This document shows, in pieces, positions 27,457 to 31,629 of a DNA stretch of 64,000 nucleotides; position 1 is the stretch's first letter, and the number at the start of each line of letters is the position of its first letter. The stretch comes from Paraeggerthella hongkongensis. Its GTDB lineage: Bacteria; Actinomycetota; Coriobacteriia; Coriobacteriales; Eggerthellaceae. The position numbers and the translations under genes are program-made. Under the pieces are notes generated by a model that saw only the letters and a program-made list of their open reading frames with translations, made no database searches and was not told where the DNA came from. The stretch spans positions 1 to 64,000 of the forward strand of contig NZ_PPTQ01000005.1 in the NCBI RefSeq assembly GCF_003340345.1, read 5' to 3'.

Positions 27457-28269
27457 TTACCGTGCGCGGTCGTCCAGCCATTCGATGGCGTCGCGGATAA
27501 CGCGGTCGCGCTTGAACTCGTTGAATATCTCGTGGTAGAGGCCGGCGTAGATGCGCAAAGACTTGTCCGTGGCCGACACCTCCTCGTACATGTCGATGCT
27601 GTCTTGCGGGCTGACCAGGCCGTCATCGCCGCCGTGCAGCAAAAGCACCGGGTCGGAGAAATCCGCAGCGTGCTCGCGGAGCCATACGTGGCCGTCGTGC
27701 ACGGCGCGCAGCAGCGCAACGGAGAACTCTTTGACGACGAACGGATCGGCCAGGTACGCTTCGCCCACGGCGGGGTCCGAGCATACGCCGTCGCCCAGCT
27801 CGTTGGGGAGGTAGGTTTGCGGGTCGAGCCCCTGCTCGACCACGCCCGCTGCCAAGCCGGCATGATCGCGGGTCCAGGCTCCCGACAGCACGTAGCCGTC
27901 CAGCTTCCCGGGGTACGTCGTTGCGTAGCTGGCTGCGCCGAACCCGCCCATGGAATGCCCGATCATGAACAGCGGCAGGTCGGGGAAGTGCGCGCGAGCC
28001 TCTTCCACGAACAGATCCGTGTCGGCCACGATCTGCTGGCGGTTGTCGTACCAGACCGCTTTGCCCATCGACCGGCCATGCCCGCGATGGTCGAAGCGCA
28101 CCACGGCGTAACCGGCCGCCAGCAGCTGCTCCACCACGTAATCGTAGCGGCCGTAGTGCTCGCACAGGCCATGGACGATGACCGCGCACGCCTTCGGGTT
28201 TTCGGGCGCGTCGATGCGTCCGACCAGCAGGAATCCTTCTGCTGCCTTCTTCGTGAGTTCCTGGTGCAT
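27457..28269 (-). CDS. Alpha/beta hydrolase, monoacylglycerol-lipase-like
   Basis: The 270-residue cytoplasmic enzyme has 'VIVHGLCEHYGRYDYV' (oxyanion region), 'RFDHRGHGRS', the nucleophile elbow GHSMGGFGA (Ser near residue 113), 'LLHGGDDGLV' (acid) and a C-terminal His in 'GLYHEIFNE'. This is the Hydrolase_4/lysophospholipase pattern; the likely substrates are monoacylglycerols or lysolipids. Single gene between the permease and the minisatellite region. Confidence 0.88.
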   Translation of the reverse strand: MHQELTKKAAEGFLLVGRIDAPENPKACAVIVHGLCEHYGRYDYVVEQLLAAGYAVVRFDHRGHGRSMGKAVWYDNRQQIVADTDLFVEEARAHFPDLPLFMIGHSMGGFGAASYATTYPGKLDGYVLSGAWTRDHAGLAAGVVEQGLDPQTYLPNELGDGVCSDPAVGEAYLADPFVVKEFSVALLRAVHDGHVWLREHAADFSDPVLLLHGGDDGLVSPQDSIDMYEEVSATDKSLRIYAGLYHEIFNEFKRDRVIRDAIEWLDDRAR

Positions 28270-28526
28270 GGGACCTTCTCTCTATCGGGTACGACGTTGG
28301 TTCCATTGTAGCGCGTTGCGCAGGGGGAAGCGGGGTCGGCTGCGCGGCGGCGGCGCTCGATGCGCAGACACGGGCGCATTGCGCATCCGCGCCTGCGTGC
28401 CGCGCGCGACCCGGCTTCCGGGCGCATCACGGGCCCGCGATGCACGCCATCCCCAACCGCCCGTGCTCCATGTGCGTTTCCTGCTCCCACGGGACCCGCG
28501 CCGCCGTTCGCGGATCCTGCGTCGTC

Positions 28527-28634
28527 CGCGAACCCCACGCCGTCTGCGAACCCCACGGACCTCGCGAGTCCTGCGTCGTCGTCCGCGAGCCCCGCGAACC
28601 CCACGTCGTCCGCGAACCCCACGGACCTCGCGAG
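28527..28634. repeat. 66-bp-period minisatellite
   Basis: A 42-bp block starting CGCGAACCCCACG at 28527 recurs at 28593 with three or fewer changes, and each block contains GCGAACCCCACG twice at 18-bp spacing. Related CCGCGAGCCCCG fragments surround it. Frames through it would encode only low-complexity Ala/Pro/Ser or Gly/Ala/Asp repeats and have no ribosome site. It occupies the 405-bp gap between the lipase and the methionine promoter; I see nothing else there. Confidence 0.7.
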
Positions 28635-28674
28635 CCCCGCGCCGTCGCCCGTTGCATCGATTCTTATTGGGGTC

Positions 28675-28702
28675 TTGACGGCGCGGATTCCTTCCCTATA
28701 CT
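28675..28702 (+). promoter_or_regulatory. Promoter of the methionine transport operon
   Basis: TTGACG and TATACT are separated by 16 bp and lie 63 bp upstream of the leader peptide start. This is a good sigma-70 type match and the only one in the region. Confidence 0.75.
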
Positions 28703-28764
28703 GAACACCTAGTGATTTGCTGTAGTATTCGAATCGGCTTTTTGCACCCGGAAGGAGGTTGGCC

Positions 28765-28890
28765 ATGATAGCTGTTTTCTCGTACATGAACATGATGATG
28801 CCCCGCGCTCTGTCCATGCTGATGGGCATGCGTCCGCGCATGCGCATGTCGTGCTTCGAGAATTGTCGCAACGCTATCCTTGTTTCTTAG
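28765..28890 (+). CDS. Methionine-rich leader peptide (41 aa)
   Basis: A short frame begins at ATG 28765, six bases after a strong AAGGAGG, and stops at TAG 28888-28890. Ten of its first 28 codons are Met (codons 1, 8, 10, 11, 12, 18, 20, 22, 26, 28), including the run MNMMM at 8-12 preceded by Tyr. It lies between a promoter and an intrinsic terminator upstream of metQ. The composition and position are those of an attenuator leader peptide that reads charged tRNA-Met. Too short and too biased to be an ordinary protein. Confidence 0.85.
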   Translation: MIAVFSYMNMMMPRALSMLMGMRPRMRMSCFENCRNAILVS

Positions 28891-28943
28891 GGTGAACGTA
28901 CATACCGTGTCGCGATTCTCGGAAGCCTCAGGCTTCTTTTTTT
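28854..28943 (+). promoter_or_regulatory. Met attenuator: antiterminator and terminator
   Basis: Two exclusive pairings are visible. CTTCGAGAAT (28854-28863, just after the last Met codon) can pair with ATTCTC-GGAAG (28915-28925) with one bulged G, which would occupy the 5' half of the terminator stem. The terminator is GAAGCC-TCA-GGCTTC (28922-28936) with seven T. A ribosome stalled on Met codons leaves 28854 onward free, favouring read-through. A ribosome at the stop codon covers it, favouring termination. Confidence 0.8.
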
Positions 28944-28988
28944 ATGCCCGAACTCGGGTCGTCCTCCTGCAAAAGAAAGGTACTTGTC

Positions 28989-29825
28989 ATGAAATGCAAG
29001 CTTGTTGCTCTGCTCTCGATCGTTGCGAGCCTGTGCGCCGCGCTGCTCCTGTTTTCGGGCTGTTCGGCCCCTGGAACGGATGATTCCGGCGCGAAGTCGC
29101 TCAAAGTGGGCGTGGTCGCCGGTCCGTATCAAGATCTGTTTCGCGAAGCCGTCGAGCCGTCGTTGAGGGAACGGGGGTATTCCGTGAGCTACGTTGAGTT
29201 CTCGGATTACGTCCAGCCCAACAACGCCCTTGTCAACGGAGACATTTCGCTTAACGTGTTCCAACATTCCACGTATCTGAACAGCTTTGCCCAGCAGCAT
29301 GGCCTTGATCTGGCCGCTCTCGCCGAAATTCCTACGGCGGCCATGGGCGTTTTCTCCAACAAGGTGGGTTCGCTCGACCAGTTGAGCGAAGGGGCGACGG
29401 TGGCCGTTCCCAATGATGACACCAACCTGTCGCGTTCGTTGCGCGTGTTGCAGCAGGCTGGTCTTGTCTTCCTTGATTCGGCGGTGGACCCCGCCAAGGC
29501 GACGGTCGACGATATCGCGTCCAACCCCAAGAACATCGTTATCAAGCAGGTCAACGCCGAGATTCTGCCCACGGTGCTCGATAGCGTGGACGCAGCCGTG
29601 GTCAACGGCAACTACGCCATCGGCGCGGGCCTCGACCTTGCCGACGCGGCTTACGTGGAGCAGCTTTCCGAGGGCTATTACAACGTGATCGCGGTGCGCG
29701 GAGAGGATGCTGCCGCTCCCTTTGCCCAGGACATCGTTGCCATTGTGAGCTCGGACGCCTTCCGACGCGCCATCGAGGACCCCAGCCGCCCCTTCTCCGC
29801 CTTCAGTAGGCCGAGCGGTTACTAA
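28989..29825 (+). CDS. metQ: D/L-methionine ABC transporter, substrate-binding lipoprotein
   Basis: The 278-residue precursor has a signal peptide ending in the lipobox LLLFSGC, so it is anchored to the outside of the membrane. The NlpA/MetQ domain shows 'VGVVAGPYQDLFREAV', 'DYVQPNNALVNGDISLNVFQH' (core QPN.AL..G..D.N.FQH) and 'VPNDDTNLSRSLRVLQ'. ATG 28989 follows AGAAAGG. It leads metQ-metN-metI, an order in which the binding protein comes first. Controlled by the Met attenuator just upstream. Confidence 0.93.
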   Translation: MKCKLVALLSIVASLCAALLLFSGCSAPGTDDSGAKSLKVGVVAGPYQDLFREAVEPSLRERGYSVSYVEFSDYVQPNNALVNGDISLNVFQHSTYLNSFAQQHGLDLAALAEIPTAAMGVFSNKVGSLDQLSEGATVAVPNDDTNLSRSLRVLQQAGLVFLDSAVDPAKATVDDIASNPKNIVIKQVNAEILPTVLDSVDAAVVNGNYAIGAGLDLADAAYVEQLSEGYYNVIAVRGEDAAAPFAQDIVAIVSSDAFRRAIEDPSRPFSAFSRPSGY

Positions 29826-29851
29826 GAGGATTCGTCCACGTGAGGAGCATC

Positions 29852-30862
29852 ATGATCGAGTTGAAAAACGTGCGCGTCGAATTTCCCTCGGGGCAATCCA
29901 AGGCGCCGGCCGTTGACGGGGTGAGCCTGGCCGTGCGCGAAGGGGAGGTGCTCGGCATCGTCGGGTCGAGCGGCGCTGGGAAGTCCACCCTTGTCAGAAC
30001 GATCAACCTGCTGCAAGCGCCCACCGCCGGGGAGGTGATCGTCGATGGCGTTTCCATCGTGGGGCAAAAGGGCAGGCAGCTGCGCGAAACCCGCGCGGGC
30101 ATCGGCATGATCTTCCAGCACTTCAATCTGTGGAACGCGAAGACCGTCGGCCAAAACGTTGCGTTTCCGCTCAAGCAGGCCGGGTGGAGCAAGCGGCAGA
30201 CGGACGAGCGCGTTGACGAGGTGCTGAGGTTCGTGAACCTGCTGGACAAGAAGGACGTCTACCCGCGCACGCTCAGCGGTGGGCAGAAGCAGCGCGTGGC
30301 GATCGCGCGGGCGCTTGCCCCCAGCTCGCGCATCCTGCTGTGCGACGAGCCTACGAGCGCGCTCGACCTGGAGACCACCGCATCGGTCCTGGACGTGCTC
30401 AGGCGCGCGAACGAGGAGCTAGGCGTCACCATGGTGGTCATCACGCACGAGCTGGACGTGGTGAAGCGCATCTGCCATCGGGTGGCGGTTATGGGCAAGG
30501 GCCGCATCGTGGAGCATGGCAACACGTTCGACGTGCTTTCGAATCCCCAGTCGGAGGTGGCGAAGGGCCTTGTCGAGCAAACGCAGCGCTTCGACCTGCC
30601 TGAAGAGGTGCTGCAGCAAAGCGGAGCGCTGTTCAAATTAACGTACGCGGGCCCTGCCGCAACCGAGCCGGTTCTGTTCGAAGCGGGGTCTTCGTTCGAC
30701 GTGACGATATCGATCGTGCACGGGCGGATAGAGTACCTTGCCCAACAGCCTTACGGGATTCTGTACGTGCTGGTGAACGGCGAGCCTGCGGAAATAGAGA
30801 AAGTCGCGGCGCACTTGAGGGCGCGCGTGGAACGTTTGGAGGTGGTGCGCCATGCTGGATAA
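29852..30862 (+). CDS. metN: Methionine ABC transporter ATPase
   Basis: The 336-residue protein has Walker A GSSGAGKST, Q-loop, signature LSGGQKQRVAIARAL and Walker B ILLCDEPTSALD. A C-terminal NIL domain (from about residue 260) follows, which in MetN binds methionine and inhibits transport. ATG 29852 is preceded by GAGGAG; a GTG at 29840 is the alternative. It overlaps metI by 11 bases. Confidence 0.95.
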   Translation: MIELKNVRVEFPSGQSKAPAVDGVSLAVREGEVLGIVGSSGAGKSTLVRTINLLQAPTAGEVIVDGVSIVGQKGRQLRETRAGIGMIFQHFNLWNAKTVGQNVAFPLKQAGWSKRQTDERVDEVLRFVNLLDKKDVYPRTLSGGQKQRVAIARALAPSSRILLCDEPTSALDLETTASVLDVLRRANEELGVTMVVITHELDVVKRICHRVAVMGKGRIVEHGNTFDVLSNPQSEVAKGLVEQTQRFDLPEEVLQQSGALFKLTYAGPAATEPVLFEAGSSFDVTISIVHGRIEYLAQQPYGILYVLVNGEPAEIEKVAAHLRARVERLEVVRHAG

Positions 30863-31517
30863 CATCGTGCGAATTGCGCCGGAGCTTGGCGTTGCGCTGA
30901 GTCAGACCGCGTTCATGTGCTCGGTTGCGCTGGCGGCCGCCGTGGTGGTCGGGGGCGCGTTGGGAATTCTTCTGTACGTCACCGGCACGCGCTTGTTCGT
31001 GAAGAACGTCTGGGTCAACAGGCTGGTGGGGGCCGTGCTGAACGTGGTGCGCTCCATTCCGTTTCTCATCCTGCTCATCTTCTTGCTGCCGCTGTCGTCT
31101 TTGATCGTGGGCACGAAGATCGGCAGCGAGGCCGTGGTGGTTCCCCTGTCCATTGCCGCGATCGCGTTTTTCGCGCGGCTGTCGGAAACCTCGTTCGCGG
31201 AGGTTGACCGGGGTATGCTGGAGGCCGCGTTCGCCGCCGGCGCCAGCAAAACCGCGGTCGTGCTGTTTGTGCTGCTGCCAGAGGCGCGTATTCCGCTGAT
31301 CAAGGGCATTACCATCACGGCCATTTCCATCCTGGGCTTTTCCGCGATGGCCGGCATCGTGGGCGGCGGGGGCCTGGGCGATCTGGCGTACCGGTACGGC
31401 TACCAGCGCTATCAGGCCGATGTCATGGTGTCGTGCATTGCGGTGCTGATCGTGCTTGTACAGGCGATACAGTTTTTGGGCGACGCGTGGGTTGCCCGAG
31501 CTCAGAAGATGCGCTAG
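30852..31517 (+). CDS. metI: Methionine ABC transporter permease
   Basis: The 221-residue inner-membrane protein has about five helices and the MetI family pattern: 'RSIPFLILLIFLLPLS', the EAA loop 'EAAFAAGASKTAVVLFVLLPEA' (core EAA...G.S....V...LLPEA) and 'MAGIVGGGGLGDLAYRYGY'. It completes the transporter and overlaps metN. The stop codon lies within the first unit of a 30-bp repeat. Confidence 0.95.
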   Translation: MLDNIVRIAPELGVALSQTAFMCSVALAAAVVVGGALGILLYVTGTRLFVKNVWVNRLVGAVLNVVRSIPFLILLIFLLPLSSLIVGTKIGSEAVVVPLSIAAIAFFARLSETSFAEVDRGMLEAAFAAGASKTAVVLFVLLPEARIPLIKGITITAISILGFSAMAGIVGGGGLGDLAYRYGYQRYQADVMVSCIAVLIVLVQAIQFLGDAWVARAQKMR

Positions 31518-31598
31518 CCTCGCGCGCAGCCTGTCAGCAGCGCTAGCGCCCGTGCGCAGCCTGTCGGCCGCGCTAGCGTTCGCGCGCAACCCGCCGAC
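31512..31598. repeat. Three-unit ~30-bp tandem repeat at the metI end
   Basis: CGCTAGC recurs at 31512, 31541 and 31571, each followed by a variant of CGCGCGCAGCCTGTC. The first unit contains the metI stop codon. Units are alike but not identical. Confidence 0.7.
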
Positions 31599-31629
31599 TT
31601 GCGTTTTGTGAGCGATGGTTGGCGGGTTG
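31587..31629 (+). terminator. Likely terminator of metQNI
   Basis: CAACCCGCC (31587-31595) pairs with GGCGGGTTG (31621-31629) over a 25-base loop, then CGTTTG. The U-tract is weak. Confidence 0.55.

Follow-up and report, generated by a model that had tools for sequence, protein, structure and literature searches.

A candidate methionine-codon transcription attenuator in front of the methionine importer operon metQNI of Paraeggerthella

Introduction

Methionine genes are, in most of the cases described, controlled by SAM riboswitches, T-boxes or repressors. Attenuation by a translated leader, in which the ribosome reports the supply of an amino acid by stalling on its codons, seems least suited to methionine, because a shortage of methionine also stops the initiation of translation. 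The region in front of the methionine importer operon metQNI in Paraeggerthella hongkongensis raises the question of whether such a leader can be used for methionine all the same. The window, which is the whole stretch of 64,000 nucleotides that was analysed, contains a short open reading frame (ORF) with ten Met codons between a promoter sequence and an intrinsic terminator, directly upstream of metQ. The preferred reading, with a probability of about 0.83, is that the importer is controlled here by a ribosome-mediated transcription attenuator responding to charged Met-tRNA. This reading draws on the sequence, on the comparison with relatives and on folding models, and it agrees with the initial annotation of this DNA, in which a complete methionine attenuator had been proposed. 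In the following sections, the parts of the locus, their conservation, their folding around a ribosome, the competing explanations and the occurrence of similar leaders are presented and discussed.

Architecture of the metQNI leader

The features of the locus, all on the forward strand, are as follows.

28675 to 28702, forward strand: sigma-70-type promoter, TTGACG, 16 nt, TATACT (sequence scan and hexamer conservation)
28752 to 28758, forward strand: Shine-Dalgarno sequence AAGGAGG, 6 nt 5' of the ATG at 28765, identical in P. hongkongensis DSM 16106
28765 to 28890, forward strand: leader ORF of 41 codons, ten of them Met, with the stop codon TAG at 28888-28890
28777 to 28862, forward strand: 1:2 protector hairpin, UUCUCG (28777-28782) with CGAGAA (28857-28862), Met codons inside
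28853 to 28926, forward strand: 2:3 antiterminator, 28853-28866 paired with 28912-28926
28921 to 28943, forward strand: 3:4 intrinsic terminator GGAAGCC-UCA-GGCUUCU, stem 28921-28937, T7 28937-28943
28989 to 29825, forward strand: metQ, substrate-binding lipoprotein of the NlpA/MetQ family (PF03180, E=6.6e-74; NF008285, E=1.7e-46)
29852 to 30862, forward strand: metN, ATPase with a C-terminal, methionine-binding NIL domain (TIGR02314 ABC_MetN, E=8e-97; PF09383 NIL, 59.6 bits)
30852 to 31517, forward strand: metI, permease (best match NF008049 MetI, E=1e-51)

The NCBIfam models for MetQ, MetN and MetI are the best matches of the three genes but score below their curated cut-offs, and the NIL domain (PF09383) scores above its own; the assignment to metQNI is supported by the order of the operon and by the NIL domain. 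No promoter-like site other than this one was found in 28270-31600, a region in which chance alone would give 0.6, and transcription is expected to start near 28709-28711 (about 28710). The next gene on the 5' side (27457-28269) is encoded on the opposite strand; the terminator therefore cannot serve as the end of a preceding gene and sits alone between the promoter and metQ. As a separate observation, the region just 5' of the promoter (28508-28651) contains GC-rich imperfect direct repeats of 60 nt with 66-nt spacing that are 90% alike and are missing from P. hongkongensis DSM 16106.

The leader ORF would encode the peptide MIAVFSYMNMMMPRALSMLMGMRPRMRMSCFENCRNAILVS, with Met at codons 1, 8, 10, 11, 12, 18, 20, 22, 26 and 28, and an in-frame TTG at 28759 forms an alternative start. 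For a Met frequency of 2.7%, the chance of finding at least nine non-initiator Met codons in 40 codons is P = 1e-6. In dinucleotide-shuffled metQ upstream regions, none reached the Met enrichment of the Paraeggerthella leader and none exceeded a -log10 P of 3.

The antiterminator is formed by the arms GCUUCGAGAAUUGU (28853-28866) and GCGAUUCUCGGAAGC (28912-28926). Its core, 28853-28863 with 28915-28926, has 11 base pairs and one bulge, and the extension continues to 28866/28912. The duplex has an energy of -20.5 kcal/mol, against -13.3 kcal/mol in shuffled sequences (p about 0.01), and the element folded alone has a z of -2.46. The 1:2 hairpin, a third element that the initial annotation had not included, is weak by itself (z of the minimum free energy, -1.53). 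The coding sequence of the leader takes part in both exclusive hairpins, and by sequence the 1:2, 2:3 and 3:4 pairings are the classical set of an attenuator. In addition, GGCUUUUU is present in the 5'-UTR (about 28736-28743), is kept in P. hongkongensis DSM 16106 and could pair with the 5' arm of the terminator.

Most parts had already been named in the initial annotation, and the promoter, the 41-codon leader with its strong ribosome site and the seven-T terminator are all found as it had proposed. The antiterminator that it gave as 28854-28863 with 28915-28925 is a real helix, with the longer arms described above. Its statement that this helix begins immediately after the last Met codon is incorrect, as the arm starts 4 nt after that codon. 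That the antiterminator takes up the 5' arm of the terminator holds for GCUUC at 28853-28857 with GAAGC at 28922-28926; the competition is limited to these 4-5 bp, and the terminator can form alongside the core helix.

All parts of an attenuator are present in order and with a workable spacing. There is a leader ORF with a ribosome site that is enriched in codons for the regulated amino acid, an intrinsic terminator between the promoter and the first structural gene, and an antiterminator that excludes the terminator through the short overlap and has its arm 3' of the regulatory codons. There is also a 1:2 protector that, according to folding (0.95-0.98), frees the terminator when the leader is either fully translated or untranslated.

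Conservation in Paraeggerthella and Eggerthella

The nearest relative compared is P. hongkongensis DSM 16106 (L032/L072), whose MetQ is 93% identical; it is the one further Paraeggerthella genome in a conservation sample of two, in which there is almost no covariation. Between the two, none of the 12 positions of the promoter hexamers is changed, against 5 of the 16 in the spacer. From the leader ORF to the terminator, 3/179 positions are changed, compared with 61/837 in metQ (p=7e-4), where 38 of the 279 third codon positions differ. In the comparison with relatives that the initial annotation had suggested, all ten Met codons are kept in P. hongkongensis DSM 16106, an eleventh is gained, and both mutually exclusive pairings are letter-for-letter identical. 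Two of the three changes lie in the leader ORF: I2M, which adds the Met codon, and R14H, where the altered base replaces a G-U pair in the 1:2 hairpin by A-U. The remaining change affects the loop of the terminator. No silent change is found in the ORF; as all its changes alter amino acids, it is the codons and the RNA that appear to be kept rather than the peptide.

In Eggerthella, the closest outgroup, the layout of promoter, leader and terminator is kept, and the Met-bearing leader is shorter, a reduced version. In two genomes (G053 and G052), MetQ is 70-72% identical, the terminator stem is the same and the leader is MLMRMQSPQ, in which codons 3 and 5 are Met. The same layout is found 5' of metQ in E. 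lenta-type genomes (L033, L034). The conservation of codons and pairings, in these few genomes, is thus perfect in P. hongkongensis DSM 16106 and reduced in Eggerthella.

A search with the leader peptide through 396 Actinomycetota and 137 Eggerthellaceae genomes gave P. hongkongensis as the sole convincing outside match, and only two species among the genomes searched carry the Paraeggerthella leader. Weak matches (E>0.002) were also obtained; those that were read looked like chance similarity within longer frames or contained stops, and they were rejected. In most other Eggerthellaceae, where MetQ is more distant (25-44% identical), no Met leader was found 5' of metQ. A circularly permuted MetQ-like lipoprotein is a common form (L202-L220 in Eggerthellaceae; L222-L236, L150 and L151 in Clostridia). 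In L204:1035-1892, for example, a signal peptide is followed by positions 96-234 of PF03180 and then by 1-96 in one open frame. Near permuted MetQ genes in about 35 genomes, Met/Cys-rich ORFs are clear in L231 and weak in L226.

Folding around the ribosome and proposed mechanism

The stalled ribosome was modelled with Met codon 8, 10, 12, 18, 20, 22 or 26 in the A site and with the 3' half of the terminator absent. With stalls at Met codons 8-26, the core of the 2:3 helix has a probability of 0.93-0.95, against near 0 without a ribosome, and its extension into the terminator arm has 0.31-0.87. Without a ribosome, the 1:2 hairpin forms at 0.95-0.98 (mean 0.98 in the window) in both Paraeggerthella species and at every transcript length tested, and with 1:2 formed the terminator has a probability of 0.99. 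A ribosome placed on the stop codon leaves the antiterminator arm exposed on its 5' side, which is a difficulty for the version in the initial annotation, since something must hide the arm. The 1:2 hairpin does so: it forms behind the ribosome at 0.95, with the terminator in front at 0.99.

Pairing of the terminator arm was also calculated directly. In the window, stalls at Met codons 8-26 give 0.53-0.76, a stall at codon 28 gives 0.07, and a ribosome at the stop codon gives 0.43; stalling at codon 28, the last Met codon, would already cover the antiterminator arm. In the same test, trpL and leuL of Escherichia coli MG1655 give 0.67-0.71 at their control codons and drop to about 0 on the stop, and the two Eggerthella genomes G053 and G052 give 0.66-0.85 at the Met codons, with 0.27 on the stop for G053. 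In these models, the window and the two E. coli leaders behave alike under a similar test. Not accounted for by the simple attenuator model is an upstream pairing of the terminator arm, at 0.93, when there is no ribosome and the 3' half of the terminator is absent; by inspection, the partner of the arm is possibly GGCUUUUU.

At equilibrium, the terminator is favoured by about 3 kcal/mol even with the antiterminator arm free, because only 4-5 bp are common to both helices. Antitermination must therefore be kinetic and depend on the order of synthesis. The thr, leu, his and trp leaders of E. coli also have a terminator probability near 1 at equilibrium, so this bias is not evidence against an attenuator. 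These controls show that equilibrium folding alone cannot separate attenuators from fixed terminators.

The proposed mechanism is as follows. RNA polymerase would start at about 28710, and a ribosome would begin the Met-rich leader. With ample Met-tRNA, the ribosome would reach the stop codon at 28888 and cover about 28870-28900. The RNA behind it would then refold into 1:2 and hide the antiterminator CGAGAA, and the terminator at 28921-28943 would form and stop transcription. When Met-tRNA is short, the ribosome would stall at one of Met codons 8-26 and block 1:2, and 28853-28866 would pair with 28912-28926 before the 3' half of the terminator is made, which would allow read-through into metQNI. 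In the absence of any leader translation, 1:2 would form and transcription would stop. A drop in initiation under methionine shortage would blunt this response. What sequence and comparison establish is the set of parts with its order, its conservation and its exclusive pairings; promoter use, leader translation, stalling, termination and the methionine response are inferred.

Alternative explanations

Several other explanations of the same region have been weighed. A leader that acts only translationally, through coupling or reinitiation onto metQ, or in a Rho-dependent manner, would make the terminator a fixed brake. The short overlap between antiterminator and terminator would fit this, and metL of Streptomyces lividans has no clear terminator (PMC8079986), so other members may differ. 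This explanation is nonetheless unlikely for the window, given the gap of about 98 nt between the leader stop and the metQ ATG and the seven-U terminator directly 3' of the pairing arms, which is kept in Eggerthella too. A new type of riboswitch that binds SAM or methionine, with the Met-rich ORF as an incidental feature, would be in line with the frequent control of methionine genes by SAM riboswitches and with the SAM-I riboswitch before metK in the same genome. Searches for Rfam families, including SAM riboswitches and T-boxes, found nothing that reached or approached the gathering score, either in the window or in the surroundings of the leader, and coding sequence of the ORF takes part in the conserved pairings. 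It is, moreover, improbable that ten Met codons together with a strong ribosome site arose by chance, and a riboswitch is considered very unlikely. Two Rfam matches in the leader region, with E values of 0.8 and 2, are chance matches.

The remaining two explanations give the peptide itself a function. Binding of Cu(I) by Met-rich motifs is known from other proteins, and a small functional protein, for example a Met-rich copper-binding peptide, would be consistent with the 95% identity of the peptide between the two Paraeggerthella species. It is hard to reconcile with the two interspecies changes in the ORF, which both alter amino acids, and with the position of the ORF inside the attenuator RNA, where its coding sequence forms both exclusive hairpins. 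Protein family profile searches with the peptide gave zero family matches, and the peptide was not found in the 135 other Eggerthellaceae genomes searched, which leaves this explanation extremely improbable. An arrest peptide that senses methionine or SAM in the exit tunnel, in place of stalling on uncharged tRNA, has precedents in other leaders, such as TnaC. Such a peptide would need a C-terminal motif that is conserved, and nothing of this kind beyond short Met/Cys clusters is common to the leaders of Eggerthella and Clostridia; ten spread Met codons fit sensing codon by codon, and arrest of this kind is barely credible here. The attenuator sensing charged Met-tRNA is the reading followed below.

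Methionine leaders in other bacteria

ORFs with a ribosome site were scanned in 215 metQ upstream regions from Eggerthellaceae, Clostridia, Treponema, Bacilli, Streptomyces and others. A -log10 P above 3 was reached only by the two Paraeggerthella leaders (6.0 and 7.1), where none would be expected. Values of at least 2 were found in 7/215 regions, against 0.2 expected; these include the two Paraeggerthella leaders and a weak one (L185).

Leaders with clustered Met and Cys codons are also found in Clostridia. Anaerotignum sp. MB30-C6 has such a leader, with a ribosome site, before metQ (MKAEFTKVRIDMNMCMRMLRTKDYC..), and others are present in Tyzzerella UBA1042, Ruminiclostridium sufflavum and uncultured Clostridia (L074, L075, L150, L151 and L231). 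Most clostridial Met/Cys leaders are followed by a terminator. In the Clostridiales metagenome-assembled genome L074, the sequence MRM is followed after about 8 nt by a 22-bp antiterminator arm, with an energy of -22.7 kcal/mol against -10.2 kcal/mol in shuffles (p<1/400), which is much stronger than that of Paraeggerthella; this is the same plan, independently built. The Met/Cys leaders are rare among the best 30 MetQ loci from about 290 sampled Clostridia genomes, and therefore represent a sporadic rather than a general clostridial trait. Six clostridial loci (L073, L075, L077, L090, L091 and L092) have a common promoter-proximal motif, CTATA..ATATTAGACAAA, 5' of metQ, which by its sequence is possibly the operator of some regulator.

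In Streptomyces, a 2021 reannotation of S. lividans TK24 described the leader metL (MSTTSDRTPATEATTTPGARCMCRRMCAF) before metNIQ, without a typical terminator (PMC8079986). The end of metL, ..GARCMCRMCAF, is kept in six Streptomyces loci from six species (L122, L126, L128, L130, L133 and L138), where the metL-type leader is located 2.2-3.4 kb upstream of metQ. The window peptide does not have the CMCRRMCAF-type C-terminus of Streptomyces, and the sequences are unrelated. The odds are about even that Met-rich leaders, often with Cys, before metQNI or metNIQ represent a recurrent, mostly undescribed kind of attenuator with several origins. With it, cells could follow the charging of Met-tRNA for import independently of SAM, which is sensed for metK by a SAM-I riboswitch. 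The lineages would be Paraeggerthella with Eggerthella, Streptomyces, and several Clostridia, such as Anaerotignum, Ruminiclostridium and uncultured Clostridiales.

Genome context and implications

In the same genome, a SAM-I riboswitch is located directly 5' of metK (G000:C1:222207-222299, reverse strand, locus L167), which encodes a three-domain S-adenosylmethionine synthetase. Sub-threshold T-box matches are present 5' of pheS-, ilvD- and ECF-ATPase-like ORFs, which were identified by eye. Profile searches of the genome did not find MetE (PF01717) or the MetH activation domain (PF02965), and one long ORF contains a homocysteine methyltransferase domain. In the simplest reading, the cell may measure SAM for SAM synthesis and Met-tRNA for methionine import. 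A complete methionine attenuator in a gut actinobacterium suggests that a translating ribosome can read the charging of Met-tRNA, and it raises the testable question of whether Met-tRNA for import and SAM for SAM synthesis are sensed separately.

Comparison with known systems

The statement of the initial annotation that Met-leader attenuation is rarely described is a fair one, and "never" would have been too strong, since metL had been proposed in S. lividans. Besides metL, no further methionine leader attenuator was found in open-access literature text, and a 2005 survey of Actinobacteria did not find RNA regulation of methionine operons (PMC1262725). SAM-I riboswitches (RF00162) and the methionine T-boxes of Bacillota likewise act on methionine genes by premature termination; in these, the RNA itself senses SAM or tRNA, unlike the leader in the window.

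The window shares with S. lividans metL a leader ORF with internal Met codons, the same importer and the same phylum. It differs in that metL has two internal Met and three Cys codons at the C-terminal end, a leaderless start and no clear terminator. With the enterobacterial attenuators trpL, hisL, leuL, pheL, thrL and ilvL, the window has in common a promoter, a short leader rich in the regulatory codon, the 1:2, 2:3 and 3:4 pairings, a U-tailed terminator and an operon for the matching amino acid. Unlike in those attenuators, the regulatory codon, Met, doubles as the initiator, the target operon encodes an importer and not a pathway, and the antiterminator arm, located within the leader ORF, has only 4-5 bp in common with the terminator. 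The kind of attenuator is known and its methionine version has been proposed once before; among the systems compared, the window is the most complete specimen.
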